Made by a program: the position numbers and the translations under genes | Assembly (NCBI RefSeq): GCF_001580365.1 | Contig: NZ_CP014480.1 | Span: forward strand, 2,109,008-2,173,007 | Direction: 5' to 3' | Source: Kocuria turfanensis | GTDB taxonomy: Bacteria > Actinomycetota > Actinomycetes > Actinomycetales > Micrococcaceae | DNA length: 64,000 bases | The notes under the pieces: generated by a model | Told to the model about the DNA's origin: nothing | Databases searched by the model: none | What the model saw: only the letters and a program-made list of their open reading frames with translations | In this document: piece after piece, positions 18,282 through 44,748 of the stretch | Layout of the letters: each line of letters starts with the position of its first letter | Numbering within the stretch: position 1 is the first letter of the stretch

Positions 18282-19295
18282 CTACGCGCAGTCCAGCGCG
18301 GTGCGCAGCGCCTCGAGGTTGTCCCGCATGACCTGCTGGTAGTCGGCGTTCTCGTCGGCCTGGGCCTCCACCGGGTCCAGCACGGCGGTCTCCACGCCGT
18401 GCTCGGCCGCCAGGGTCTCGGCGACCTTGGGGTTGACCAGGGACTCGGAGAACACCGTGGTGACGCCCTCGGCCTCGACGATCTTGCCGATCTCGGCCAG
18501 CCGGGCCGGGGAGGGCTCGGTCTCGGGGTCGAGCCCGGCGATGCCCACCTGCTCGAGGCCGTACTTGTCCGCCAGGTACCCGTAGGCCTCGTGGGCGACC
18601 ACGATGGTGTTCCGCTCGCAGGTGGCCAGCCCCTCGGTGAACTCCTCGTCCAGGGCGGTCAGCTCGGTGGTCAGCTGCTCGGCGTTGGACTCGTAGGTGG
18701 CGGCGTTGGCCGGGTCGACCTCGGCCAGCTCGTGGGAGACCTCCGTGGCGACCGCGGCGAGCCGCTCGGGGTCCAGCCAGAAGTGCGGGTCCTCCCCGCC
18801 GTGGTCGTGGCCGTCGCCTCCGGCGGGCTCCCCCTCGGCGTGCCCCTCCTCGGTGTGGGCCTCCGCGCTGTGGGACTCCTCCGCGGCCCCGTGCTCCTCC
18901 GCCGAATGGGCCGCCTCACCCTCCACCCCGGCGTGCACCGCGTCGAGGGCGTGCTCGGGGGCCGTCTGGGCCACGGCGTCGTCGACCGCCGGCTGGAACC
19001 CGGAGAGGTACACGACCGCGTCCGCGGTGCGCAGCTTGTCGACGGCGGCCGGGGACAGCTCCAGGTCGTGCGGCTCGGCCCCGGCCGGAGTGAGCGACTC
19101 CACCGCCACGAGGTCCCCGCCGACGCGCTCGGTGACGTACTGCAGCGGGTAGAAGGACGCCTGCACGGTCAGCGCCTCCCCCGACCTGCCGTCGGCGGTG
19201 GCCGCGGACGGGTCGGTGGAGTCGGAGGCACAGGAGGACAGGGCGAGGGCGGCGGCCAGGGAGAGTGGAACAACGAGAGCGCGAGACGGGATCAT
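18282..19295 (-). CDS. znuA: Zinc ABC transporter substrate-binding lipoprotein
   Basis: A 337-residue cluster A-I metal-binding lipoprotein. The signal sequence ends in a lipobox with Cys22. The first metal His is in AEPHDLELS (His76). A His/Glu/Asp-rich loop spans about residues 121-171, typical of zinc rather than manganese binders, then PHFWLDPE and VAHEAYGYLA complete the site. It captures Zn(II) outside the membrane for ZnuBC. It has its own promoter with two Zur boxes and is probably translated from a leaderless mRNA. Confidence 0.92.
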   Translation of the reverse strand: MIPSRALVVPLSLAAALALSSCASDSTDPSAATADGRSGEALTVQASFYPLQYVTERVGGDLVAVESLTPAGAEPHDLELSPAAVDKLRTADAVVYLSGFQPAVDDAVAQTAPEHALDAVHAGVEGEAAHSAEEHGAAEESHSAEAHTEEGHAEGEPAGGDGHDHGGEDPHFWLDPERLAAVATEVSHELAEVDPANAATYESNAEQLTTELTALDEEFTEGLATCERNTIVVAHEAYGYLADKYGLEQVGIAGLDPETEPSPARLAEIGKIVEAEGVTTVFSESLVNPKVAETLAAEHGVETAVLDPVEAQADENADYQQVMRDNLEALRTALDCA

Positions 19296-19332
19296 GAGAA
19301 CGATTCTCGTGAAAAGTGAGAACCGTTGTCAA
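19295..19332 (-). promoter_or_regulatory. znuA promoter with two Zur-type boxes
   Basis: Read on the minus strand, TTGACA (19332-19327) and GAGAAT (19308-19303), 18 bases apart, form the promoter, with a predicted start beside the ATG at 19295. Two 15-bp boxes, TGAGAACGATTCTCG (19295-19309) and TGAGAACCGTTGTCA (19317-19331), lie over the -10 and -35 respectively, centres 22 bp apart. Both fit a TGA-n9-TCA-like Zur motif shared with three other sites in the window. Confidence 0.75.
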
Positions 19333-19354
19333 TCCACCGCCGTTGCGGCAGAGC

Positions 19355-19747
19355 TCAGGAGCCGGCCTGCCGGCAGGAGCCGCAGATCCCGTGGAGCTCG
19401 ATCGCGTGCCCGACGTCGGTGAAGCCGTGCCGGCGGGCGGCCTGGGCGGCCCACCGCTCCACCGCCGTCTCGGCCACCTCCACGGTGTGCCCGCAGCGGC
19501 GGCACACCAGGTGGTGGTGGTGCTCCGCGCGGGCGCACCGGCGGTACCGCATCTCTCCGCCCGGGGCGGCGAGGGCGTCCACCTCCCCGGCCTCGGCCAG
19601 GGCACTGAGGTTGCGGTAGACGGTGGCGAGGGAGACCGGCTCCCCCTGCTCCGCCAGCATGGCGTGCAGCTGCTGGGCGGAGCGGAACTCGGGGGTGCGG
19701 TCGAGCAGCTCGGTCAGGGCGGAGCGCTGCCGGGTGGTCCGGGTCAT
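19355..19747 (-). CDS. zur: Zinc uptake regulator Zur (Fur family)
   Basis: A 130-residue Fur-family repressor. The winged helix includes SAQQLHAMLAEQGEPVSLATVYRNLSALAEAGEVD. The metal part has the His-rich AEHHHHLVC and the CxxC pairs CRRCG and CGSC of the structural zinc site. I prefer the ATG at 19747, seven bases after GAGGAG, over the one at 19753 that overlaps the znuB stop. It is the last gene of znuC-znuB-zur and should bind the 15-bp boxes in this region when zinc is plentiful. Confidence 0.88.
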   Translation of the reverse strand: MTRTTRQRSALTELLDRTPEFRSAQQLHAMLAEQGEPVSLATVYRNLSALAEAGEVDALAAPGGEMRYRRCARAEHHHHLVCRRCGHTVEVAETAVERWAAQAARRHGFTDVGHAIELHGICGSCRQAGS

Positions 19748-19749
19748 GG

Positions 19750-20658
19750 TCATGCTCCTCGCAGCTGGAGGTCGTCCTCGACGTGGTGGGCGTCCTCCGT
19801 GCCGTGGGGCCGCACGCGCCCCAGCAGGGGGCGGACGAGCAGGGCGAGCACGTAGCAGCCGATGGCCAGCACCACGATCATGGCGCCCGGGGACAGGGGC
19901 TGGAAGTAGGTGATGGACAGGCCCGTCACGCACACCGCGGCCCCCACGGCCATGGCCGTGCCCATGGTGCCGGCGAAGGAGCGGGTGAGCAGCTGGGCGA
20001 CGGCGACCGGGACGATCATCACCGCGGAGACCAGCAGGACGCCGACCACGCGCATCGACACGGAGACGGTGAGGGCGGCCATGACGGCCACCAGGATGTT
20101 CAGGGCCCGGACGGGCAGCCCGGTGGCGAGGGCGAACTCCTCGTCGTGGCACAGGGAGAACAGGGCCGGGCGCAGGCCCAGCCCGACGCCGAGGACCACC
20201 GCGGCCAGCCCGGCGGTGAGCCAGACGTCCAGGGTGGTGACGGTGGCGATGGAGCCGAAGAGGTAGCCGGTGAGGTTCGCCGAGGTCCCGCCGGCCAGGC
20301 CGATCAGCAGCACCCCGCCGGCGATGCCGCCGTAGAACAGCAGGGCCAGGGCGACGTCGCCGCTGGTGCGCCCCCGGGTGCGCATGACCTCGATGAGCAC
20401 CGCGCCCACGACGGCCGCGACCACCGCTCCGGGCACGGCCAGGGCGTCGTGCGTGGTGAGCCCGGCCGCGGAGCCGGCCAGCCAGCCCATGGCCACTCCG
20501 GTGAGGGCCACGTGGCCGATGCCGTCCCCGAGCAGGGCCAGGCGCCGCTGGACGAGGTAGGTGCCGATCACCGGCGCGGAGACTCCCACGAGGACGGCGA
20601 TGAGCAGACCGCGCTGCATCAGGGGACTGGCGAGCATGGCGGTGAAGGTCTCGATCAT
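19750..20658 (-). CDS. znuB: Zinc ABC transporter permease
   Basis: A 302-residue membrane protein of the ABC-3 family with about eight or nine helices. It has the typical VLVGVSAPVIGTYLVQRRLALLGDGIGHVALTGVAMGW start and VVGVLLVSAVMIVPVAVAQLL later. The C-terminal 25 residues are hydrophilic and His/Asp-rich. It overlaps the znuC stop by four bases and abuts zur. It forms the channel for Zn(II) delivered by ZnuA. Confidence 0.92.
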   Translation of the reverse strand: MIETFTAMLASPLMQRGLLIAVLVGVSAPVIGTYLVQRRLALLGDGIGHVALTGVAMGWLAGSAAGLTTHDALAVPGAVVAAVVGAVLIEVMRTRGRTSGDVALALLFYGGIAGGVLLIGLAGGTSANLTGYLFGSIATVTTLDVWLTAGLAAVVLGVGLGLRPALFSLCHDEEFALATGLPVRALNILVAVMAALTVSVSMRVVGVLLVSAVMIVPVAVAQLLTRSFAGTMGTAMAVGAAVCVTGLSITYFQPLSPGAMIVVLAIGCYVLALLVRPLLGRVRPHGTEDAHHVEDDLQLRGA

Positions 20659-21479
20659 GGTCGCTGCGGCTTTCCGTGGAGATCGGGGGCGGAGGGAACG
20701 GCGGCGGGCTCGTCCCCGTGCGGGTGCAGGTGCTCGTGGTCGGGGGCGTCGTGCCCCGGGGCCGGCTGCGGGGGGCTGCCGTCGTGGACGATGTGCCCGT
20801 GGCGCAGCACCACGGCGCGGTCCAGCAGCGGGGCCAGCTCGCCGAGCTCGTGCAGCACGACGAGCAGCGTGGTGCCGTCAGCCTGCAGCTGCGCCAGGAT
20901 CCGGGCCATGGCCTCCTTGGAGACCTGGTCCACCCCGGACAGCGGCTCGTCCAGCAGCAGCAGCCGCGGGCGCCGCACCAGCGCCCGGGCGATCAGCACC
21001 CGCTGCTGCTGGCCGCCGGAGAAGATGGCCACGCTCTCGTGCGCCCGGTCGGCCAGGCCGACCTGGTCGAGCGCGTCGAGGCAGGCCCGCCGGGCGCCGG
21101 CGCCCGGGCGCAGCCGCCGGTGGCCCGTCAGCCCCGCGGCGACGACCTCGAGCGCCGTGGCGGGCACCCCGGCACCGACGCCGACGCGCTGGGGGACGTA
21201 GCCGATGCTCGACCACGGCACGGTCCGGCGTGCGGTGACGTCGGCGCCGAACAGCCGGGCCTCGCCGGACGCGACGGGCACGACGCCGAGCAGGGCCTTG
21301 AGGAGCGTCGACTTGCCCGAGCCGTTGCCGCCCATCAGGGCGACGGCCTCGCCGTCGGCCACGGACAGGTCCACCCCGCGCAGCACCGGCGTGGCGCCGA
21401 ACGCCACGGTGAGGCCCTCCGTGCGGATGGCCGGGCCGTTCCCCGGAGCCGGGGCCGCCGGCGTGGATCGCAGTTTCAT
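20655..21479 (-). CDS. znuC: Zinc ABC transporter ATP-binding protein
   Basis: A 274-residue ABC ATPase. Walker A is GGNGSGKST, the Q-loop lies in GYVPQR, the signature is FSGGQQQR and Walker B is LLLLDEPLSG, followed by the switch His in VVLHE. The C-terminal tail is His/Asp/Pro-rich (HDAPDHEHLHPHG), possibly a zinc-binding extension. The ATG at 21479 is chosen because the promoter predicts transcription starting there. It heads the znuC-znuB-zur operon under two Zur boxes. Confidence 0.9.
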   Translation of the reverse strand: MKLRSTPAAPAPGNGPAIRTEGLTVAFGATPVLRGVDLSVADGEAVALMGGNGSGKSTLLKALLGVVPVASGEARLFGADVTARRTVPWSSIGYVPQRVGVGAGVPATALEVVAAGLTGHRRLRPGAGARRACLDALDQVGLADRAHESVAIFSGGQQQRVLIARALVRRPRLLLLDEPLSGVDQVSKEAMARILAQLQADGTTLLVVLHELGELAPLLDRAVVLRHGHIVHDGSPPQPAPGHDAPDHEHLHPHGDEPAAVPSAPDLHGKPQRP

Positions 21480-21515
21480 GAGAGCCATTCTCAAGAAAAT
21501 GAGAACGATGGTCAA
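21479..21515 (-). promoter_or_regulatory. znuCB-zur promoter with two Zur-type boxes
   Basis: On the minus strand TTGACC (21515-21510) and GAGAAT (21492-21487) are 17 bases apart, and the predicted start falls on the ATG at 21479. Boxes TGAGAGCCATTCTCA (21479-21493) and TGAGAACGATGGTCA (21500-21514) cover the -10 and -35, centres 21 bp apart. The layout closely repeats that of the znuA promoter. Confidence 0.75.
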
Positions 21516-21545
21516 TTCGCCCACCATCCGAGGCTCCTGTCTGCT

Positions 21546-21560
21546 TGAGAATATTTCTTA
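21546..21560 (+). promoter_or_regulatory. Zur-type box before COG0523-like/rpmJ genes
   Basis: TGAGAATATTTCTTA is an imperfect 15-bp palindrome matching the other boxes at both ends. It lies 15 bp before the ATG at 21576 in the divergent region with znuC. Zur control of zinc-free ribosomal protein paralogues is a known theme, which supports the call. Confidence 0.65.
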
Positions 21561-21575
21561 TGTAAGGTGGCGGGC

Positions 21576-21848
21576 ATGCGCCTTGTCATGGTCAGTTCCC
21601 TGGACGCCCTCAGCCGCCGGCGGGCCTGCGCGTCCCTCGCGGAGGCCCTGCACCGCGCTGCCGCCACGGAGGCTGCCGGCGCGGACGTGGTGCCGGCCGG
21701 CCCCGCCACGGTGCTGGCCGCCACCGGCGCGGATCTGGACGCGGCCGAGCTGACCGGGCTGCTCGCCGCCTGCCAGCTCACGGAGGAGGAGCTGCGGTCC
21801 GGGATCACCGGGCTGAGCGACCCGTTCGGCATCAGCTCGCCGAACTGA
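21576..21848 (+). CDS. Short protein resembling the ends of COG0523 zinc metallochaperones
   Basis: A 90-residue protein. The start ([23 protein letters not shown]) resembles the first strand and helix of actinobacterial COG0523 (CobW-like) GTPases, and the end ([24 protein letters not shown]) resembles their C-terminus. The whole GTPase core with GxxGxGKT and CxCC is missing. It could be an internally deleted remnant or a small independent protein. AAGGTGG precedes the ATG. It sits behind a Zur box and 64 bp before rpmJ, the place where COG0523 genes are often found. The relationship is my inference. Confidence 0.6.
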
Positions 21849-21912
21849 CATCGAGGAGTCCGCACCGGACTCCCCAGCACTGACCACCAGCAACAACAAC
21901 CAGGAGGAACGA

Positions 21913-22035
21913 ATGAAAGTACGCAACTCGCTGCGCGCCCTGAAGAAGGTCCCCGGCGCCCAGGTGGTCCGCCGCCGCGGCCGCACCTTCGTGATCAACA
22001 AGAAGAACCCCCGGATGAAGGCCCGCCAGGGCTGA
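21913..22035 (+). CDS. rpmJ: 50S ribosomal protein L36, zinc-independent (C-) form
   Basis: A complete 40-residue L36, [20 protein letters not shown] and onward to [12 protein letters not shown]. It has no Cys, so it lacks the zinc ribbon of the standard L36. Such C- paralogues replace the zinc form under zinc shortage and spare zinc. AGGAGG precedes the ATG. The upstream Zur-type box and neighbouring znu genes fit zinc-starvation control. It ends at a strong terminator. Confidence 0.93.
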
Positions 22036-22048
22036 GCCCGGACGACGA

Positions 22049-22090
22049 CGAACGGCCGCTGCCGGACCCCGGTCCGGCAGCGGCCGTTCG
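22049..22090 (+). terminator. Perfect 20-bp hairpin after rpmJ
   Basis: The arms 22049-22068 and 22071-22090 are perfectly complementary over 20 bp, with CC at the centre, 13 bp after the rpmJ stop. No T-run follows, as is usual for very GC-rich actinobacterial terminators. Confidence 0.85.
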
Positions 22091-22181
22091 CGCATTCTCG
22101 AGATGGCGCCTGCTGCACCCTGCCCTCGGGCGAGGCCGGCCCCGGCCGCCCGGACGCCGGCACCGCCGGGCGAGCGCGGCA

Positions 22182-24173
22182 TCAGGTCTGCAGCTGCCTC
22201 GCCCGCTCGGCGGAGCCCGCCGACTCGGCGGAGCCCGCCGACTCGGCGGAGCCCGGGCCGGGACCGGACGCAGGAATCATGGCGAAATGCCCCGGCCCGG
22301 GACGGGAGGTCCGCCGCGCCCCCTCGGCGCTCGAGAGCGAGACAGCCAGGACCGAGGCCAGCACCAGGGCCCCCGCCGGGCCGAGCACGGTCCACGGGGC
22401 GCGCTCGACGTAGCCGATGCCCTCGGCCAGCAACAGGCCCCACTCCGGGGCCGGCGGCTGCTGGCCCAGGCCCAGGAAGCCGAGCGCGGCGATGGCCAGG
22501 GCGGTGCCGGGCAGGCGCAGGACGGCGTGCCGGGCCACCTCGGGCAGCAGGGCGGGCAGGACCGTGCCGGCCAGGATGCGAGCGCGGCCCGCGCCCAGCA
22601 GGGGCAGCACCCGCACGTAGGGGCGGGCCGAGATCTCGGCGACCAGGGCGGCGGTGTGGGCGGCCAGCGGCGCCCAGCTCACCAGGGTGACGGCCACGGC
22701 CGCCCCGGCCGCCGACGGCCCGGCCACCGCGACGACGAGGATGCCGGCGATGATGGGGGGCGCCGCGTTGGTGACCTCCACCGGGCCGGTGGACCACGCC
22801 CCGGCCATCCCGACGACCAGCCCGATGAGCAGGCACGCGGCGACCACGACCAGGGCCAGGCCCAGGGTGTCCAGCGCGCCGTGGCCCACCCGGGCCAGCA
22901 CGTCACGCCCGGCGGCGTCCGCCCCCAGCGGCAGCGCCCAGGAGGGCGCCTCCAGCCGGGTGTGGGCGGAGGTGTAGGGGTCCCGGAACAGCCCGGCCAC
23001 GACCAGGGCGAGCAGCGCCCCTCCGGAGACCGCCGGCACCACCCACCACGACCGGCGCCGACCCGGCGGCGGGCCGGGGACGGGCAGGTCCCCGGAGCGG
23101 GCGGCCGGGCCCAGCAGGGACCGGCGGACGAGGGCGGCCAGGGCCCCCAGGGCCGCCGCGAGCACGAGCAGCAGCAGGACCCCCGCCTGCAGGGTCGGGA
23201 TGTCCTGGGCCGCGGCGGCCCCCAGCAGGGACCGGCCCAGACCGGGGATCGCGAAGACCTCCTCGACGGCCACGGCACCGCCCGTGAGCCCGACGACGAC
23301 CAGCGCGATCTGCCCGATCACCCCAGGCAGGGCCCGGTGCAGGGCGGCGAGGGCGATCCGGGCCCGGGAGTGCCCGGCCACCGCCCAGGTGTGCACCCAG
23401 CGCTCGGTGAACGCCCCGGCGAGCGCGGTGGTGAGCAGCCGCCCGATCAGCCCGCCCGCGGGCAGCCCGAGGGCCAGGGCCGGCAGCACGACGTGCTGGG
23501 GGCCGCGCCACCCGTAGGGCGGCAGCCAGCCCCACCACACCGCCACGACGATCAGCAGGACGGCCGCCAGGAGGAACTCCGGCAGCGCGGTCAGCGCGGC
23601 GGCCGCGGCCCCGGCGCCGCGGGCGGGGCGCCCGGCCAGTCCGGCGCGGACGGTGGGGACGCAGGTCAGGGCGGCGACGAACAGGGCCACGGCCAGGGCC
23701 GCGCCCATCAGGGTGACGGACACTCCCAGGGCCTCCAGCACACCGGGCAGGACCGGTCGGCCGCTGATCCAGGAGGTGCCGAAGTCCCCGGTGAGGACTC
23801 CGGACGCCCAGTCGGCGAAGACCGCGACCGGGCCGCGGTCCAGACCCAGCTCGGTCCGGATCTGAGCCAGCACCTCGGGCGTGGCCTCCCGGTCGGCGTA
23901 GCGGGCGCGCAGGACCGTGTACTCCGGGCGGTTGCCCGACAGCCACGGCAGGGCGCCGATCAGCACGACGACGGCGGTGAAGGCCAGAGCCCGCGAGATC
24001 AGGGCCGCCGCCCCCGCCCGGCCCAGCGCACGGGCCCTCGCCCGGCCCGCCACCGGGGCGACCGCGGAACCCGCCCCGTGGCCCACCGTGACGCCTGCCG
24101 CCTCGCCCGTCACAGCACCCATCACTGGGACGGCCGCCGGGTCCGTCATCTGGCCCGCTGTCCGGCTCGTCAC
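22182..24173 (-). CDS. Fused Dpp/Opp-type ABC permease (DppB-DppC in one chain)
   Basis: A 663-residue protein joining two normally separate permeases. The first half (about residues 55-345) is DppB/OppB-like, with TELGLDRGPVAVFADWASGVLTGDFGTSW and the coupling helix around LPGVIGQIALVVVGLTGGAVAVEEVF. The second half (about 365-630) is DppC-like, with LPLGADAAGRDVLARVGHGA and FLGLGQQPPAPEWGLLL. The C-terminus carries SAESAG repeats from an 18-bp DNA repeat. It overlaps the binding-protein gene by four bases. A Zur-like box at the operon start suggests import of a metal-bound ligand. Confidence 0.83.
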   Translation of the reverse strand: MTSRTAGQMTDPAAVPVMGAVTGEAAGVTVGHGAGSAVAPVAGRARARALGRAGAAALISRALAFTAVVVLIGALPWLSGNRPEYTVLRARYADREATPEVLAQIRTELGLDRGPVAVFADWASGVLTGDFGTSWISGRPVLPGVLEALGVSVTLMGAALAVALFVAALTCVPTVRAGLAGRPARGAGAAAAALTALPEFLLAAVLLIVVAVWWGWLPPYGWRGPQHVVLPALALGLPAGGLIGRLLTTALAGAFTERWVHTWAVAGHSRARIALAALHRALPGVIGQIALVVVGLTGGAVAVEEVFAIPGLGRSLLGAAAAQDIPTLQAGVLLLLVLAAALGALAALVRRSLLGPAARSGDLPVPGPPPGRRRSWWVVPAVSGGALLALVVAGLFRDPYTSAHTRLEAPSWALPLGADAAGRDVLARVGHGALDTLGLALVVVAACLLIGLVVGMAGAWSTGPVEVTNAAPPIIAGILVVAVAGPSAAGAAVAVTLVSWAPLAAHTAALVAEISARPYVRVLPLLGAGRARILAGTVLPALLPEVARHAVLRLPGTALAIAALGFLGLGQQPPAPEWGLLLAEGIGYVERAPWTVLGPAGALVLASVLAVSLSSAEGARRTSRPGPGHFAMIPASGPGPGSAESAGSAESAGSAERARQLQT
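22206..22255. repeat. 18-bp tandem repeat in permease C-terminus
   Basis: Two and three-quarter copies of CTCGGCGGAGCCCGCCGA start at 22206, 22224 and 22242, encoding SAESAG units at the tail of the fused permease. Likely expandable in frame. Confidence 0.85.
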
Positions 24174-25738
24174 CTGTTCCCTCGCTCGGCGACGGTGGTC
24201 TCGGCGGTGATCAGCTCGCGCTCGCGCGGGTCGCGGGCCGCGCCCTCCACGTCGTCCTGCTCGCCCTGGATCACGCGCTCGTGGAGCATCGGGATCGCGG
24301 CGTCCTCGGCGAGGACCGCGGCCTCCGCCTCCATGATCGCCGTCCGGCGCTCCTCGCCGGGGGCAGCCTTCTCCGCCTTGTCCAGGGCGGCGTCGACGGC
24401 CTCGGAGCAGAACTGGGAGATGTTGAAGGAACCCTCGCAGCCGAAGTCGCTGACCATGTAGGCCACCGGGTCCCCGGAGTCCAGCACGGTGGCCCGGGAG
24501 AGGATGAAGGCGTCGAACGTGCCCTCGAGGGCGTCGGCCTCGATGTACTGGTACTCCCGGACGTCGAGCTCCACCTCGAAGCCCGCCTGCTCCAGCTGCT
24601 GCTGGAGCTGCACGGCGACCTCGGGCAGCTCGGCGCGGTCGGTGAAGGTGCCGATGGTGATCTTCTGCCCGGCCGGGTCCCCGGCCTCGGCGCGGTCGGC
24701 GAGCAGCTCGCGGTAGGCGTCGGTGTCGCGGCCCTCCGCCGCGTAGGGGATGGCGGGTCCGAGCAGGCCGGCGGCCACGTCGGCCCGGCCCTCGTAGACC
24801 CCGTCCACGACGCTCTGCGGGTCGAGGGCCTCCCGGGCGGCCGCCCGCAGGGCGGGGTCGGTGAACGGGCCGTCCTCGGTGTTGAGGTAGAGCGTGTTGG
24901 TGCGCGGCATCGGCACCTCCTCCAGGAGGTCCTCCTCCACCTGCGCGGCCTGGCCCACCGGCACGGCCTCGACGACGTCGGCCTCCCCGGTGCGCAGCGC
25001 GGCGGCCCGGGCGGTGCCGTCGGGCACGAAGGACACGTCGATGCCGGCGGCGGCCGCGGCGCCGTCCCAGTGGTCCTCGTAGCGCTCCAGCGTGGCGCCG
25101 GAGGTGCCGTCGACGGCGGTGAGCTCGAAGGGCCCGGTGCCGTGGCCCACCGGGTCCACCGCAGTGCCCTCATAGGCGGCCGGGGCGAGGATGGACAGCT
25201 GCGGGCTGGACAGCCGCTGCGGGACCAGCGGGTCGGTCTCGGCGGTGGTGACCCGCACGGTGTCGCCCTCGGCCGCCACGGTCATCTCCACCCCGTCGAG
25301 GATGCGCGGGGCCGGCTCGGCTGTCACGGCCCGCTCCAGGGAGGCGGCGACGTTCTCGGCGGTGAGCTCCGTGCCGTCGTGGAAGGTGACCCCGTCCCGG
25401 ATCGTGAAGGACCAGGTGGTGTCGTCGACCTGCTCCCACTCGGTGGCCAGCATGGGCCGGGCGTCCCCGGCCTCGTCCAGCCGGACCAGGGTCTCGGCGG
25501 TCGACCAGCGGGAGAGCTTGAAGGCGTCGTCGCTGAGCGGGGACAGCCCCGAGCGCGGCGGCTGGAGCATGGCCAGCTCGACGCGGGCGTCGGACGAGCC
25601 ATCGGAGCCCTCGCCGGAGGCGGCGCCGGAGCCCTCGGCGAAACAGCCGGTGAGCAGCAGCAGGCTGACCGCGGCCAGCCCGAGGCCGGTGGCCCGCCGG
25701 GCGGGACGGTGGACGGGGACGGAGGAGCGAGGAGGCAT
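24170..25738 (-). CDS. ABC transporter substrate-binding lipoprotein (family 5, Dpp/Opp/Nik type)
   Basis: A 522-residue extracellular solute-binding protein. A signal sequence ends at lipobox LLTGC (Cys32). Family 5 signatures include ATEWEQVDDTTWSFTIRDGVTFHDGTELTAENVAASLERA and a late LNTEDGPFTDPALRAA. Relatives bind peptides, nickel or opine-like metallophores. The gene is in the same direction as the fused permease (4-bp overlap) and follows the two ATPase genes after 183 bp. The ligand is not decided by sequence; the zinc context favours a metal complex. Confidence 0.86.
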   Translation of the reverse strand: MPPRSSVPVHRPARRATGLGLAAVSLLLLTGCFAEGSGAASGEGSDGSSDARVELAMLQPPRSGLSPLSDDAFKLSRWSTAETLVRLDEAGDARPMLATEWEQVDDTTWSFTIRDGVTFHDGTELTAENVAASLERAVTAEPAPRILDGVEMTVAAEGDTVRVTTAETDPLVPQRLSSPQLSILAPAAYEGTAVDPVGHGTGPFELTAVDGTSGATLERYEDHWDGAAAAAGIDVSFVPDGTARAAALRTGEADVVEAVPVGQAAQVEEDLLEEVPMPRTNTLYLNTEDGPFTDPALRAAAREALDPQSVVDGVYEGRADVAAGLLGPAIPYAAEGRDTDAYRELLADRAEAGDPAGQKITIGTFTDRAELPEVAVQLQQQLEQAGFEVELDVREYQYIEADALEGTFDAFILSRATVLDSGDPVAYMVSDFGCEGSFNISQFCSEAVDAALDKAEKAAPGEERRTAIMEAEAAVLAEDAAIPMLHERVIQGEQDDVEGAARDPRERELITAETTVAERGNR

Positions 25739-25921
25739 CAGGGAGCCCTTTCGGTGTGGTGGACGACGGACGGTCGGATGGATCGGGGACGGCGGGGTGG
25801 TGCGGGGACGCCGGACCTCGGGGCCCGGCGAGCGGTCAGCACCCGCGGACGAGCGGCGGGGAGCAGGGCGAGCAAAACCGACGGGTGCCGCGAGGCGCCG
25901 GCGGGCGGCAGGGTGCGGGTC

Positions 25922-26695
25922 TCAGGCGGGCAGGCGCGGCACGGCGTCCACCAGTTGCCGGGTCGTCGGGTGGCGGGGGCTCTCGAGGAGCCGGTCGGCC
26001 GGGCCCTCCTCCACCACCTGCCCGTGGTCGAGCACCAGGGCGCGCTCGCACAGGGAACGGACCGCGGTGAGGTCGTGGGAGATGAACAGCAGCCCCAGAC
26101 CCCCGCGCACGTGCTGGTCCTGCAGCAGGTCCAGCACCTGGTTGCGCAGCGGCAGGTCGAGCCCGCTGACCGCCTCGTCGGCCAGGAGGATCCGGGGGCG
26201 GGTCACCAGGGCCCGGGCGATGGCCACGCGCTGGGCCTGCCCGCCGGAGAGCTCGTGGGCCCGCCGATCCAGGTGCTCGGTGCCGAGCCCCACCTGCTCC
26301 AGGGCGTCCCGGACCAGGCGCGAGTGGTCGCCCGGGACGCGGAAGCGCCGCAGCGGTTCCCGCAGCTGGCGCTCGACGCTGCGCCGCGGGTCCAGGCTGG
26401 AGGCCGGGTCCTGCGGGATGTACTGCACGGCCTGCCGGGCTCGCCGGATCTGCTGCCGGCCCGTCAGCGGCGCGCCGTTGAAGAGGACCTCGCCCCGGTC
26501 CGGGCGCTCCACGGCCAGGAGCAGGGACAGCAGCGTGGACTTGCCCGACCCGGAGGGGCCCACCACGCCCAGCGCCTCGCCCTCGCGCACCTCGAGCTCG
26601 ACCCCGCACACCGCGGTCACCTCCCCGGAGCGGGTCCGGTAGGTCCGGGTGAGTCCGGTGCCGCGCAGCGTCGTCGGCCCTGCCGGCCGGATCAC
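25922..26695 (-). CDS. ABC transporter ATP-binding protein (DppF/OppF-like)
   Basis: A 257-residue ATPase. Walker A is GPSGSGKST, the Q-loop is in YIPQDPASSLDPR, the signature is LSGGQAQR and Walker B ILLADEAVSGLD. The C-terminal GPADRLLESPRHPTTRQLV is typical of Opp/Dpp ATPases. The start is GTG at 26695, overlapping the stop of the upstream ATPase (GTGA). It powers the fused permease together with the DppD-like subunit. Confidence 0.87.
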   Translation of the reverse strand: MIRPAGPTTLRGTGLTRTYRTRSGEVTAVCGVELEVREGEALGVVGPSGSGKSTLLSLLLAVERPDRGEVLFNGAPLTGRQQIRRARQAVQYIPQDPASSLDPRRSVERQLREPLRRFRVPGDHSRLVRDALEQVGLGTEHLDRRAHELSGGQAQRVAIARALVTRPRILLADEAVSGLDLPLRNQVLDLLQDQHVRGGLGLLFISHDLTAVRSLCERALVLDHGQVVEEGPADRLLESPRHPTTRQLVDAVPRLPA

Positions 26696-27537
26696 GAGGC
26701 CGCGTCCAGCGGTGCGGCGACGGACTCGAGGCCGGTGCGGGCGTCCGGGCCCACCGGCGTCGCGGCGGGCCGGAGGCCGGCGCGGGCGGCCGCGACCAGG
26801 GCCACGGTGAACGCCGCCCGGGGCGACCGGAGCACCTGCTGCATCGGGCCGGCCTCGACGACCCGCCCCCGGTCGAGGACCACGACGTCGTCGCAGAGGT
26901 CGGCGGCGACCGCCAGGTCGTGGGTGATGAACAGCAGCGCGCTGCGCCCCGGGCCCGTGCAGCGGCGCAGGGCCTCGACGACCTGCCGCTGGCTGATCAT
27001 GTCCAGGGCCGTGGTCGGCTCGTCGGCCACCAGCAGGTCCGGTGACGCGGCCATGGCCAGGGCCAGGCACACGCGTTGTCGCTGCCCGCCCGAGAGCTGG
27101 GAGGGGTGGGCGCGCAGGATCCGTTCCGGGTCCTCGAAGCCGACCTCGCGCAGCAGCTCCGCCATGACCTGGCCGGCCTCCGCCGCGCCGGTCCGGCGGC
27201 GGCGGGCCACGGCGGGCAGCAGCTGCCGGTCCAGCCGCACGACGGGGTTCAGCGCGGCCTGGGAGTCCTGGAAGACCGCCGCCATGCCCGGGCGCCGCCC
27301 CGGTGCCTGGCGCCAGGGCAGCTCACAACCGTCGACCCGCAGGGTGCCCTGCACGCGGAACTGAGGCCCCAGCAGCCCCAGCAGCGCCAGCACCGTGAGG
27401 GACTTGCCTGAGCCCGAGGCCCCGAGCAGGGCCACCCGCTGCCCGGGCTGCACCCGGAAGCCCACGTGGTGCAGCAACGACTGCCCGGCCACGGAGACCC
27501 CGAGGTCCCGCAGGTCCGTACCGGTCCCGTCACTCAT
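26692..27537 (-). CDS. ABC transporter ATP-binding protein (DppD/OppD-like)
   Basis: A 281-residue ATPase with Walker A GASGSGKSL, signature LSGGQRQR and Walker B LLVADEPTTALD, followed by FITHDLAVAADLCDDVVVLDRGRVVEAGP. The ATG at 27537 has GGGGGAAG upstream. It is the first gene of the ABC operon, and a Zur-like 15-bp box lies 44 bp before it. The usual C-terminal Cys/His cluster of iron-sulfur Opp ATPases is absent. Confidence 0.87.
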   Translation of the reverse strand: MSDGTGTDLRDLGVSVAGQSLLHHVGFRVQPGQRVALLGASGSGKSLTVLALLGLLGPQFRVQGTLRVDGCELPWRQAPGRRPGMAAVFQDSQAALNPVVRLDRQLLPAVARRRRTGAAEAGQVMAELLREVGFEDPERILRAHPSQLSGGQRQRVCLALAMAASPDLLVADEPTTALDMISQRQVVEALRRCTGPGRSALLFITHDLAVAADLCDDVVVLDRGRVVEAGPMQQVLRSPRAAFTVALVAAARAGLRPAATPVGPDARTGLESVAAPLDAAS

Positions 27538-27580
27538 GCTTCCCCCTTGCCAACAGCGCTTCTTCACGATCTGATGGTAA

Positions 27581-27595
27581 TGAGTTTCATTCTCA
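27581..27595. promoter_or_regulatory. Zur-type box between ABC operon and ferredoxin-like gene
   Basis: TGAGTTTCATTCTCA matches the znu boxes at TGAG and CATTCTCA. It lies in an AT-rich pocket in the divergent region, 44 bp from the dppD-like start and 75 bp from the start at 27671, so it could control both directions. Confidence 0.6.
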
Positions 27596-27670
27596 GCAAC
27601 TAATCCGACACGGGCGGGCCATCGGATCCATCGGCCTGCGACGTCGCCCATCCACCCGGGAGGCACCCCC

Positions 27671-28096
27671 ATGAGCCGCAAGAGCACCACGAGCGAGACC
27701 ACCACCGATGCCGGCGGCCCGCTGGTGGCCGTGTGCCAGGGTCACCGGTGTGCCGGCCTGCGCCGGCTGACCGGGACGGCCGATCAGGTGGAGCATCTCC
27801 AGGAGGTGGTGAAGGGCACGGCAGGAGCCGTGCTGATCTCGTCGCCGTGCATGGGGCGGTGCGAGATGGCCTCGCTGGTCGCCGTCGCCCGACGGGACGG
27901 ACCCAGCGGGCAGGTCGGCCCCACCGTGTGGCTGAGCGGGCTCGAGGACGCGGACCGCGCGGAGGCGCTGAACCGCTGGGTGGCCTCGGGCGGCCCCCAG
28001 CGGATCCACCAGCCCGAGCACGGCGCCCCCCGGTGCCTGCGGGACGCCGTGAGCGGTTTCGGACCGCCTCCCGCCGTCGCGCGTCGCGCCCACTGA
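27671..28096 (+). CDS. (2Fe-2S) ferredoxin-like small protein
   Basis: A 141-residue protein with a thioredoxin-like ferredoxin pattern: Cys22 and Cys27 in CQGHRC, and Cys60 and Cys64 in SPCMGRC. The four Cys could bind a 2Fe-2S cluster or zinc. The C-terminal part is Pro/Arg-rich. GGGAGG precedes the ATG. It is divergent from the peptide/metal ABC operon and shares the Zur-like box, so it may belong to the zinc-starvation response. Its reaction is unknown. Confidence 0.72.
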   Translation: MSRKSTTSETTTDAGGPLVAVCQGHRCAGLRRLTGTADQVEHLQEVVKGTAGAVLISSPCMGRCEMASLVAVARRDGPSGQVGPTVWLSGLEDADRAEALNRWVASGGPQRIHQPEHGAPRCLRDAVSGFGPPPAVARRAH

Positions 28097-40551: not shown

Positions 40552-42600
40552 ATGAAGGCCCCGAGTGACAATCCCATCAATGAGAAAAATGAGGACCTAT
40601 TAAGTCGTGCGGACACTGCCGCACAGTTCGCGCGTCAAGTACTTAAGCATGACGCGAGTCAAGGTCTCGTTGTTGGCGTGTTGGGTCCATGGGGATCGGG
40701 AAAAACATCATTTCTGAATCTTGCCCGACCCCAACTGGAGAAAGCTGGCGCGGCACTTTTAGATTTCAATCCATGGATGTTTAGTGGGGCTGATCAGCTC
40801 GTCGACTCATTTTTTGTCGAGCTTGCCGCTCAACTCAAGCTGAAGGCGGGCCTTCCCGCCATAGGTAAGCTTGTAGAAGAGTACGGAGAGGTATTTTCCG
40901 GCCTGGGGTGGGTGCCTGTCGTAGGGACGTGGTTTGAGCGCAGCAAGGTAGCCACAACGCTTGTCGGGCGCCTCATGCAGTGGCGTGAAGAAGGTGTTGA
41001 GCAGCGTCAGGATCGACTTAGAAAGGCCCTGCTTGAGCTCGAAAAGCCGATCATCGTCTTTCTGGATGACATAGACCGGCTTTCCAGTGTAGAAATACGT
41101 GACGTATTCAAGCTCGTGCGATTGACGGCAAGCTTTCCCAATGTTACGTACATCGTTGCGTTTGACCGTACTCGCGTTGAGTATGCTTTGTCGGAAGAGA
41201 ACCTTCGAGGTCGGGACTATTTGGAAAAAATTCTCCAGTTGGCTGTCGATTTGCCAGCGGTTCCGCCGGAATTGTTGCGAAAACGTACGATTGCTGCACT
41301 GGATGAGCAACTGCCAGAGGCTGCCTGGATTGACAGTGCCGATAATAACAGGTGGCCAGATGTCTATATGGAGATTATTAGTCCACTAATTAAAAACATG
41401 CGGGACGTGAGGCGATATGTTGCGTCTATGGGTGGGGCTATGGAGACCCTGGCAGGCAAAGTGGCACTGTCAGATATTCTTGGTCTCGAAGCAATCCGCA
41501 TTTTCTTGCCAGATGTTTACTCTCATCTACACCTCTCTGCCCAGGCTCTTACCGCTCTTCCCTCGGATTGGCCGAAGGGGCAAGATTCGCCGGAGTATGT
41601 CGCTTATGTTGAGGAACTGATTAGAAGAGGTGGCGAACATGGGTCGGTCGTCGCTGCTGTTATCAAACAAATGTTTCCCGCCGCGCAACGCCACCTTGGA
41701 GGGTCGGCGTACGTACGCGGCTCGGAAAAGGAGTGGTTGCGAACGCGTCGTGTAGCCCACGAAGACATTTTGCGTCTTTACCTTGAAAAAGTTGCGGGTG
41801 CCTCGTTGACCGCCTTCGACCAAGCGCAGCGTGCGTGGGCAGTAATGGATGACTTACGGGGCATTAGCTCCGTCCTGAATGCAGTCGACCCGCAGCAATT
41901 GCCAGACGTTGTATCCCACCTAGAAGTTTATGAAGATGCGTTTGGCGATAATCATGTTGTTTCTGGGGTTGTTGCCCTCGCGAATCAATTTGAAAAATTG
42001 CCCGACCGGGATATAGGTGTTTTTGATATTCCGGACGAACTGATTGTTAGTCGTTTGATGTATCTAATTTTGCGTAAAGTTGAAGATGAGCAACGTCTTG
42101 CTGACATGGTCCGTGAAATTTTGGTTTATGTGCCGTCCTTGAACGGCCAACGGCACGTCTTAGACATTGTGGGGTACCGTGAAAACGCTGGGCATAGGTT
42201 AATTTCGCAGGACGCCGCGGCAAGTTTTGAACGAGCATGGCGGGCCGAAGTTCGTTCTCGTTCCGCCACTAACCTTTCGATGGAGCGCGAGTTGTTGCGT
42301 GTGGTCGTGGATGCTCAGAGGTCGAACTCCGATGAGCCGAACTGGCGACCTCCGGAGGACCCTGACTTGACCGTATCGATTTTGCAGTCGGCTGTGAGTC
42401 GAGCCCGGAGTCAAGAACTTGGAAAGCGTGCCATTCAATATGAAGACCGGCTTGCCTGGGATTCGTTAGTCAAAGCGTTTGGTTCACAGTTGGACTTGAT
42501 CTGGCACGTTGAATTGGCGCGGGAGGTAAGGGGGCAGCAGCATGCTGAGCTCTTTGAGCTCGTCGACAAGTACTTGGGGGGATGGAGAACTGCAGACTAG
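40552..42600 (+). CDS. KAP family P-loop NTPase
   Basis: A 682-residue NTPase. Walker A is GPWGSGKTS (residues 45-53), the DFNPWMFSG motif that follows is typical of the KAP family, and Walker B is IIVFLDDIDRL (about 167-177). DRTRVEYAL and IKNMRDVRRYV are further KAP features. There is no obvious membrane insert. KAP proteins occur in phage-defence contexts. GGAAGGGTGGA precedes the ATG. Codon use is rich in AT-ending codons, unlike neighbouring genes, so it was acquired. Its TAG stop is the target site of the IS element. Confidence 0.85.
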   Translation: MKAPSDNPINEKNEDLLSRADTAAQFARQVLKHDASQGLVVGVLGPWGSGKTSFLNLARPQLEKAGAALLDFNPWMFSGADQLVDSFFVELAAQLKLKAGLPAIGKLVEEYGEVFSGLGWVPVVGTWFERSKVATTLVGRLMQWREEGVEQRQDRLRKALLELEKPIIVFLDDIDRLSSVEIRDVFKLVRLTASFPNVTYIVAFDRTRVEYALSEENLRGRDYLEKILQLAVDLPAVPPELLRKRTIAALDEQLPEAAWIDSADNNRWPDVYMEIISPLIKNMRDVRRYVASMGGAMETLAGKVALSDILGLEAIRIFLPDVYSHLHLSAQALTALPSDWPKGQDSPEYVAYVEELIRRGGEHGSVVAAVIKQMFPAAQRHLGGSAYVRGSEKEWLRTRRVAHEDILRLYLEKVAGASLTAFDQAQRAWAVMDDLRGISSVLNAVDPQQLPDVVSHLEVYEDAFGDNHVVSGVVALANQFEKLPDRDIGVFDIPDELIVSRLMYLILRKVEDEQRLADMVREILVYVPSLNGQRHVLDIVGYRENAGHRLISQDAAASFERAWRAEVRSRSATNLSMERELLRVVVDAQRSNSDEPNWRPPEDPDLTVSILQSAVSRARSQELGKRAIQYEDRLAWDSLVKAFGSQLDLIWHVELAREVRGQQHAELFELVDKYLGGWRTAD

Positions 42601-43803: not shown

Positions 43804-44748
43804 CTAAGCGACTTCCCGGAAGCGAAGGTAAGCTTTTTCCAGCAGGACACTTGAAGGACGCTCTTTGCGCTGTTGGGGAAGGACCAAGAGCCGCTCTCCG
43901 TGACGCTCCTGCAAGCCATGCCGCAACATGGGTCCGTCAACTTCATTTAGAAGATCTGTTCGGATTTCCACGACATAATCCGGACGTATCCCCATGAATT
44001 TTCTATCATAGGCCGAGTGGTGAATCTTGCACAAAGATAACCCGTTGGTCACAGCGGCGATGCCGTCCTCGTGAGCGTCCGGCAAAATGTGAGCGGCATC
44101 CAACAATTCCACATGGTGGAGAGCACAAACGGCGCAGTGCTCGTCATAGGCCCTCATGACCATGGAACGGAACACTGGCTGGTGAAGTCGTTGACGAGCC
44201 ATGCGCGCGGCATAGCGCTTTTCCACCACGCTCAAAGAGGGCCCCTCAGAGAAGATCTGCCCATCCCTGGATAGACGGTCCATATCGGCGACTTCGACCA
44301 TGAACTGTTGTTCATCTGCTTCTTCGCCCACCAAGAAGACGGGGAAGACTGCCTGATAGACACCTTCCGCGACACCGTAGAACCAGATTAGAGGTAAACC
44401 CGCCTCCATGGCTGCTCGCAAGGCCCGATTGTCAGGGATGTCCGGCCCGCCATCTCGCCATTTATAGCGCATCAAGCCGTCGCTGCCTACGGCATCCTCG
44501 TAAGGCCGTTCCCTGCCCGGTTTCGTAAATTTCGTGGTGAATGAAAGCGCAGCACCAAAACTTGCAGGCTTCCAAATGCCCTTGTACCGGTTGCGGAGTG
44601 GAATTTTCGCACCATCATATTCAAATTCTTCAATATCGAGGTAGTACATTGGCTCTGCACCGTCGTTAGTGCGCATCGCCAACCACTCCATGGCCGCGTG
44701 GCGGAACTTCATCTCGTGCTCAAATGTCATGCGTGGAAAGGCAGCCAT
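43804..44748 (-). CDS. HNH endonuclease with N-terminal recognition-like domain
   Basis: A 314-residue putative restriction enzyme. The HNH part (about residues 195-255) has Cys205 and Cys208 in CAVC, His220 in DAAHILP, and NGLSLCKIHH with the Asn and His, a HNH_2-type nuclease. The N-terminal 190 residues (YKGIWKPASFGAALSF, DGLMRYKWRDGGPD, GLPLIWFYGVAEGVYQAVFP) form a separate domain often joined to HNH, possibly for modified DNA. The gene is lower in GC than the chromosome and convergent with the KAP/IS unit. It lacks a methylase partner, which fits a modification-dependent nuclease. Confidence 0.83.
   Translation of the reverse strand: MAAFPRMTFEHEMKFRHAAMEWLAMRTNDGAEPMYYLDIEEFEYDGAKIPLRNRYKGIWKPASFGAALSFTTKFTKPGRERPYEDAVGSDGLMRYKWRDGGPDIPDNRALRAAMEAGLPLIWFYGVAEGVYQAVFPVFLVGEEADEQQFMVEVADMDRLSRDGQIFSEGPSLSVVEKRYAARMARQRLHQPVFRSMVMRAYDEHCAVCALHHVELLDAAHILPDAHEDGIAAVTNGLSLCKIHHSAYDRKFMGIRPDYVVEIRTDLLNEVDGPMLRHGLQERHGERLLVLPQQRKERPSSVLLEKAYLRFREVA

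Follow-up and report, generated by a model that had tools for sequence, protein, structure and literature searches.

The window analysed here is a stretch of 64,000 nucleotides from the 4.16 Mb genome of the actinobacterium Kocuria turfanensis (contig NZ_CP014480.1, positions 2,109,008 to 2,173,007). Between its positions 18,282 and 28,096 it carries znuA, a znuCB-zur operon, a small open reading frame (ORF) followed by rpmJ2, an operon for a transporter of the Nik type and, divergent from the latter, a gene for a Cys-rich protein (Table 1). Six 15-bp boxes lie among these genes; znuCB-zur encodes Zur, a zinc-sensing repressor, and the boxes are very probably its operators. Taken together, the locus appears to be a well-supported Zur regulon of a mostly familiar type, in which a stub of a COG0523-type gene, a recurrent Nik target and a Cys-rich companion would be the unusual members.

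Table 1. Features of the putative Zur regulon; positions are those of the window unless a contig (C) or fetched stretch (L) is named
Feature	Position	Strand	Evidence and remarks
znuA, metal ATP-binding cassette (ABC) substrate-binding protein, 337 aa	18282..19295	-	PF01297 ZnuA E 6.6e-80; zinc by context
Zur box 1, znuA proximal	19295..19309	.	22.2 bits; holds -10 GAGAAT (19308-19303, - strand); its final A belongs to the ATG
Zur box 2, znuA distal	19317..19331	.	23.8 bits; overlaps -35 TTGACA (19332-19327, - strand); 22 bp from box 1
zur, Fur-family regulator, 132 aa	19355..19753	-	PF01475 E 1.4e-31; best solved relatives 3mwm (ScZur), 2o03 (FurB)
znuB, ABC-3 permease	19750..20658	-	PF00950 E 1.3e-54
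znuC, ABC ATPase	20655..21479	-	PF00005 E 3e-29; start codon 21479-21477 chosen by conserved box/ATG layout
Zur box 3, znuC proximal	21479..21493	.	22.2 bits; holds -10 GAGAAT (21492-21487, - strand); its final A belongs to the ATG
Zur box 4, znuC distal	21500..21514	.	19.2 bits; overlaps -35 TTGACC (21515-21510, - strand); 21 bp from box 3
Zur box 5	21546..21560	.	19.6 bits; directly upstream of -10 TAAGGT (21563-21568), sORF90-rpmJ2 promoter
sORF90, 90-aa ORF, apparent internally deleted remnant of a COG0523/CobW_C-type protein	21576..21848	+	comparison with relatives
rpmJ2, type B (Cys-free) ribosomal protein L36, 40 aa	21913..22035	+	Pfam; NF002021 74.8 bits, cut-off 70
Nik/Dpp-type permease, two units fused, 663 aa	22182..24173	-	PF00528 in two stretches; Opp1B, Opp2C models below cut-off
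NikA/SBP_bac_5 substrate-binding lipoprotein	24170..25738	-	PF00496 E 2.3e-66; NF045468 219.5 bits, cut-off 600; best solved relative 3t66
Second ABC ATPase, NikE-like, GTG start	25922..26695	-	PF00005 E 1.6e-34; tblastn matches in relatives
First ABC ATPase, NikD-like	26692..27537	-	TIGR02770 E 1.3e-58, below cut-off
Zur box 6	27581..27595	.	17.6 bits; forms a 22-bp block with -10 TACCAT (27579-27574, - strand)
Cys-rich protein (2Fe-2S ferredoxin-like?), 141 aa	27671..28096	+	C-x4-C ... C-x3-C; no Pfam family
Seventh Zur-type box	C1:2275629; L051:9630-9644		25.0 bits; 145 kb from the window cluster

A preliminary description of this DNA had proposed six matching boxes, all in promoter regions and together defining a local regulon. 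A string check of the window returned the six 15-mers exactly where they had been placed (19295, 19317, 21479, 21500, 21546 and 27581), and all six occupy promoter positions, the two znu-proximal ones ending on the A of a start codon. The boxes do resemble one motif but are unequal, having on the + strand 1, 2, 1, 2, 3 and 3 mismatches to TGAGAACNATTCTCA, and those at 21546 and 27581 are the furthest from this consensus by letters. When at most three mismatches were allowed on both strands, the window gave 11 matches, all within the six box places, compared with a mean of 0.86 (standard deviation 0.92, maximum 3) in 100 dinucleotide-preserving shuffles, none of which reached 11. The window was also scanned with a position matrix. 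Because circularity was to be avoided, the matrix was trained on relatives only, namely on 24 sites before their znuA, znuC or COG0523 genes, without this genome and without Nik promoters. The relatives, designated by G-numbers, come from a family set of 149 genomes in 32 genera and a phylum set of 396; L-numbers denote the stretches fetched from genomes, and box counts in relatives refer to such stretches scored with this matrix at 12 or 18 bits, as stated. In the window, the six promoter boxes were the only positions with at least 9 bits, scoring 22.2, 23.8, 22.2, 19.2, 19.6 and 17.6 bits in order of position, and 20 Mb of first-order Markov sequence contained 8 sites of at least 17 bits, which corresponds to 0.026 in 64 kb and 1.66 in the whole genome. 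A chance origin of the boxes was rejected on the shuffle test together with the relatives' matrix.

The boxes, besides exceeding chance, keep a fixed place relative to promoter elements and recur in relatives. At the znu promoters the -35 element falls in the distal box and the -10 element in the proximal box, whose last A is that of the start codon. This layout, TTGAC[AC], 17-18 bases, GAGAAT, 7 bases and ATG, is found in all 12 boxed znu promoters (8 of znuA and 4 of znuC, window included), and its complete form occurs in the window only at znuA and znuC. Promoters of the COG0523 class follow another plan, in which TANNNT stands 0-2 bases past the box and ATG 6-8 bases further on (19/19); for comparison, TANNNT is contained in 0.28% of the 9-mers of the window. 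Before nikD, a box of at least 18 bits is present in 9 of 13 fetched relatives belonging to 4 genera, and the matrix had been trained without these; the count derives from 14 Nik loci of other genomes, less that of G079, whose operon starts at a contig end. The 22-bp block formed by box 6 and its -10 is letter-identical in the relative G160.

An assignment to Zur agrees with the published actinobacterial motif, given for S. coelicolor Zur (ScZur) as tGaNNatSatNNtCa (PMC5472717). C. glutamicum is described as having leaderless znu transcripts with a Zur motif overlapping the core promoter (PMC2823685), and published actinobacterial regulons of Zur already include znu, COG0523 and ribosomal paralogues, RpmJ among them (PMC2823685; PMC6103462). 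Palindromic 15-bp operators of the 7-1-7 form at the core promoters of the targets, which help to define such a regulon, are apparently present here as well. The S. coelicolor regulon shares with the window this 15-bp motif, znu and the ribosomal paralogues, but differs in that the metal chelate is handled through the coelibactin cluster (PMC5472717). The C. glutamicum regulon and the accompanying actinobacterial reconstruction likewise have core-promoter boxes and the targets znu and COG0523, with ribosomal paralogues, RpmJ included, in some other actinobacteria, whereas neither a fused-permease Nik operon nor a Cys-rich partner, both found here, appears in the available part of that account (PMC2823685).

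The proposed regulator is encoded at the locus itself, linked to znu, as in other actinobacterial Zur regulons. Compared with solved structures, the Fur-family protein of the window is closest to S. coelicolor Zur (E 1e-40) and M. tuberculosis FurB (3e-40), with Nur far behind (2e-10); on this similarity alone, Nur was rejected as the binder of the boxes. An NCBIfam scan of the protein gave no model above its cut-off. The zur gene sits inside the boxed znuCB-zur operon, and does so too in G160, G151 and G164. The presence of a Zur homologue in a boxed operon, the fit to the published motif and the boxes at each promoter class in relatives all support the Zur reading that had been put forward for the six sites.

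Several observations weigh against this reading. A loose consensus, TGANNATNATNNTCA, matched with one mismatch at 99 places in the genome versus 15 for the reversed control and is too unspecific. One of the eight relatives' znu clusters lacks a box: in the znu-zur cluster of G146 (L060:7407-8309) the best site in the 550 bases scanned before znuA scores -3.2 bits, and the COG0523 operon of the same genome is boxed. Among the 13 Nik loci, two reach only 13.0 bits and two have no site of at least 12 bits, and just 4 of 14 Nik boxes have a strict TANNNT after them; the Nik promoters are therefore less uniform. The Cys-rich gene shows no clear promoter beside box 6. The metal-specific NCBIfam models, in the case of ZnuA those for zinc and manganese, all stay below cut-off for the Znu proteins, as do the metal-specific models for the Nik proteins, and for this reason the word zinc rests on the relatives of the regulator and on context. 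Lastly, the genome holds two further Fur-family proteins besides the window Zur, and a second Zur-like paralogue (C1:989664-990014), 53% identical to it over 124 aa, could bind instead or as well. 

This paralogue also bears on the claim of the preliminary description that one regulator coordinates the four promoters, which is sustained by the Zur homologue in the boxed operon and weakened by the existence of a second Zur-like protein. The sites might be genuine operators with the paralogue as their main binder, or be shared by both proteins, for instance at different zinc levels. The stretch HHHHLVCRRCG, common to the two proteins, and their degree of identity speak for such an arrangement, but it is the window Zur that is encoded in a boxed operon, here and in three relatives, and no box of at least 12 bits was found in the 13.5 kb fetched around the paralogue (L097; L165:6165-6515), so that a leading or shared role for the latter is unlikely.

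With the window Zur as the regulator, the promoter anatomy suggests the following course, for which we infer Zur binding, a response to zinc, leaderless starts and a transported chelate. When zinc is sufficient, zinc-loaded Zur dimers would occupy the core promoters of znuA and znuCB-zur, where the paired boxes, 21-22 bp apart, would cover the -35, the -10 and the first base of the probably leaderless transcripts; at the sORF90-rpmJ2 and nikD promoters, Zur would occupy one box only, immediately before the -10. Bound Zur would block RNA polymerase, repression of this kind being the plain reading of the promoter anatomy. Under zinc starvation Zur would leave the boxes, and the derepressed cell would make the ZnuABC importer, a Cys-free L36 able to replace the zinc-type L36, and a second, NikA-type importer with a fused permease, most probably for a zinc chelate. 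This amounts to a testable zinc-starvation regulon for the genome.

Part of the preliminary description that needs correction is the term local. The six boxes do cluster in the window, but a seventh lies far outside it, 29 bases ahead of the start of a gene for a 430-aa, CobW_C-containing protein (L051:9659-10951), a full-length CobW_C-type paralogue; the regulon is therefore not merely local. Two tighter genome scans, allowing 3 and 2 mismatches, listed 64 distinct strings genome-wide, among which seven reach at least 17 bits, namely the six boxes and that at C1:2275629, and the next one scores 16.3; sites further from both patterns would escape these scans. Weaker sites, of 12.8-14.8 bits, lie at C1:331622, C1:2678978, C2:156203 and C3:98749. 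In four same-genus genomes (L136-L139), znuC matches of about 44% identity have no box of at least 12 bits and are taken to be probable components of other metal importers.

The targets expected of an actinobacterial Zur, znu, a COG0523 gene and a zinc-free ribosomal paralogue, are all represented, the COG0523 gene by a remnant in the window and by the full-length boxed paralogue at C1:2275629. The second L36 encoded elsewhere in the genome is of the Cys-bearing type. The gene before rpmJ2 had been called COG0523-like, which holds insofar as it matches COG0523-type proteins of relatives, but it is a 90-aa, internally deleted remnant: a complete CobW-type protein with a CobW_C domain is not present in this ORF, which has no Pfam match. 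It matches 16 other genomes of the family set, in 15 of them within open frames of 360-464 aa; the match in G147, in a 234-aa frame with a stop (E 5e-4), is doubtful and may be spurious. Altogether 17 COG0523 places outside this genome were noted and 14 fetched, those of G038, G047 and G147 being left out. In the translated partners the ORF aligns to the C-terminal part, and relative to the 372-aa protein of the same-genus G153 it retains 24 residues at the N-terminal end and some 50 at the C-terminal end, most of the middle being gone. Full-length relatives of the stub match CobW_C and show no GTPase N-domain in the two that were scanned. The COG0523-type gene of G149 (L135:9261-10481) matches in pieces and may be broken.

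Near relatives form a series, with an intact COG0523-rpmJ2-Cys-rich operon in G153, the stub with rpmJ2 in the window, and no such module between the Nik operon and znuC in G160, the only interval of that genome in which rpmJ2 was sought. This can be read as a decayed COG0523 gene whose Zur promoter was kept for rpmJ2, the gene having shrunk to a stub while promoter and rpmJ2 persisted. An ATG-TAA start-stop driven by 21546 was considered but discarded, since TAAGGT as -10 and an ATG at 21576 account for the letters. One could go further and regard only the znu boxes as functional, with 21546 and 27581 as decayed leftovers, given that these deviate most from the canonical form (3 mismatches on the + strand in each), that a deleted remnant follows the first of them and that G160 lacks the stub-rpmJ2 module at the corresponding place. 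Yet at 21546 the box, -10, spacing and ATG keep the layout of all 19 COG0523-class promoters and the downstream rpmJ2 is intact, and at 27581 the box and -10 are invariant in G160 though the flanks differ, with 9 of 13 relatives boxed before the same Nik operon. Such decay is very improbable, and a Zur operator role for both sites is preferred.

The genes of the Nik-type operon stand in the order nikD-nikE-nikA-nikBC, the last encoding a single chain that holds the two permease units. It thus comprises a NikA/Opp-type binding protein, two permease units (fused) and two ATPases, the composition of a Cnt-like importer. The fused permease has homologues in 15 of the 149 family genomes (own included), spread over 9 of the 32 genera, and this recurrent NikA-type importer is added as a predicted Zur target in the family. 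Between nikE and nikA, 7 of the 13 relatives have a gene of the major facilitator superfamily (MFS; one confirmed by Pfam), and in G095 the boxed Nik operon has two divergent neighbours, an SbnA-type gene (342.6 bits against a cut-off of 349.95) and one for a FAD-NAD(P)-binding protein (L131:14039-16674). The pair in G095 and the MFS gene of relatives possibly look like a metallophore route. No synthesis gene was recognised beside the Nik operon of the window, where a tblastn search with the G095 pair gave no match. The same-genus G153 has a different, unfused NikA-like operon that is also boxed (TGATTATCATTCTCA, L085:923-937).

Two characterised systems serve as precedents. The importer encoded by C. 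diphtheriae dip2162-2165 is likewise an actinobacterial NikA/OppA-type system and is regulated there by zinc and Zur, but has two separate permeases and one ATPase, lies beside sidAB and is also iron regulated (PMC6711530); the window operon has instead one fused permease, two ATPases and no recognised synthesis gene alongside. The S. aureus CntABCDF, another NikA/Opp-type importer, is known for chelate uptake and for its rise in a zur mutant, and works with cntKLM and cntE (PMC5666155), none of which was recognised among the scanned ORFs, which are part of those of the window. By analogy with both, and from regulation and the neighbours in relatives, uptake of a zinc chelate is most probably the job of the window operon. 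Import of nickel or peptides, with Zur control either incidental or limiting nickel entry, would agree with the best NCBIfam matches, which are nickel and oligopeptide transporter models (all under their curated cut-offs), and with the annotation of the best solved relative of the NikA-like protein as nickel-binding. It is nevertheless improbable in view of the Zur-type boxes that precede the corresponding operon in 4 genera, the metallophore-like setting given by the MFS gene in 7 of 13 relatives and by the SbnA-type and FAD-dependent genes of G095, and the metal chelates carried by the S. aureus NikA/Opp-type transporter that is raised in a zur mutant (PMC5666155). For other actinobacteria, the literature already contains znu, COG0523, rpmJ and a NikA-type importer as genes under Zur control. 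A fused-permease Nik operon or the Cys-rich family as Zur targets is not described in the titles and abstract openings of the open-licence literature, among the matches listed.

The Cys-rich gene is the least familiar part of the regulon, and box 27581 would control it together with the divergent Nik operon. Its protein has matches in 8 of the 149 family genomes, own included. For the alignment two same-genus copies were added and a piecewise copy in G119 and a weak match in G071 left out, and C22, C27, C60 and C64 are invariant in all 8 aligned proteins. The cysteine spacing differs from that of the classical thioredoxin-like 2Fe-2S ferredoxins. PF01257, the model for the latter, gave no match for the window protein and matched one of 8 family members at E 0.1; a PDB profile search returned the 24-kD subunit of NADH:ubiquinone oxidoreductase at E 0.089 only, behind an unrelated match at 0.016, and the single-sequence structure model has a mean predicted local confidence (pLDDT) of 42.8, too low for use. 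An identity as a thioredoxin-like ferredoxin is thus only hinted at. In S. coelicolor, SCO7676 is called a ferredoxin (PMC3430247).

Within the family, the gene follows rpmJ2 on the same strand in five loci (L056, L057, L059, L060 and L085), adjoins the Nik operon in two (the window and L082), lies apart in L058 and occurs in L061 without rpmJ2 or box. The copy in L058 (G119, L058:8238-8509) matches in pieces and may be broken. A wider profile search placed the family in 13 of the 396 phylum genomes, own included; three of these genomes, all of one additional family, have a divergent member in the vicinity of a COG0523-type gene and of boxes scoring 13-16 bits. In G262 and G551 a divergent member stands directly 3' of the genes for L28, L33, S14 and S18, right after that for S18, in a gene order of the mycobacterial type. 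The mycobacterial alternative ribosomal operon, with its CobW-like MRF, resembles the window in placing zinc-free ribosomal proteins under Zur along with a protein of the CobW type, and differs in encoding L28, L33, S14 and S18 where the window has L36 and a deleted CobW-type gene (PMC7174638). These associations suggest a Cys-rich family, so far undescribed, that is repeatedly encoded next to alternative ribosomal proteins. It is conceivable, if still tentative, that this unnamed family accompanies Zur-controlled zinc-free ribosomal proteins across actinobacteria with a possible role for the alternative ribosome or in the handling of iron or zinc when zinc is scarce, and that in this lineage its box came to be shared with a zinc-chelate importer. 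Nine CR[GD]CCCG relatives outside the family (L153-L161) had no box of at least 12 bits in the 6-12 kb fetched, and four of these nine stretches gave a tblastn match to an ABC ATPase.

Elsewhere in the window, two long ORFs (40552-42600 and 43804-44748) have a third-position G+C of 0.52 and 0.61 in a window of 72% G+C, and are possibly acquired DNA.

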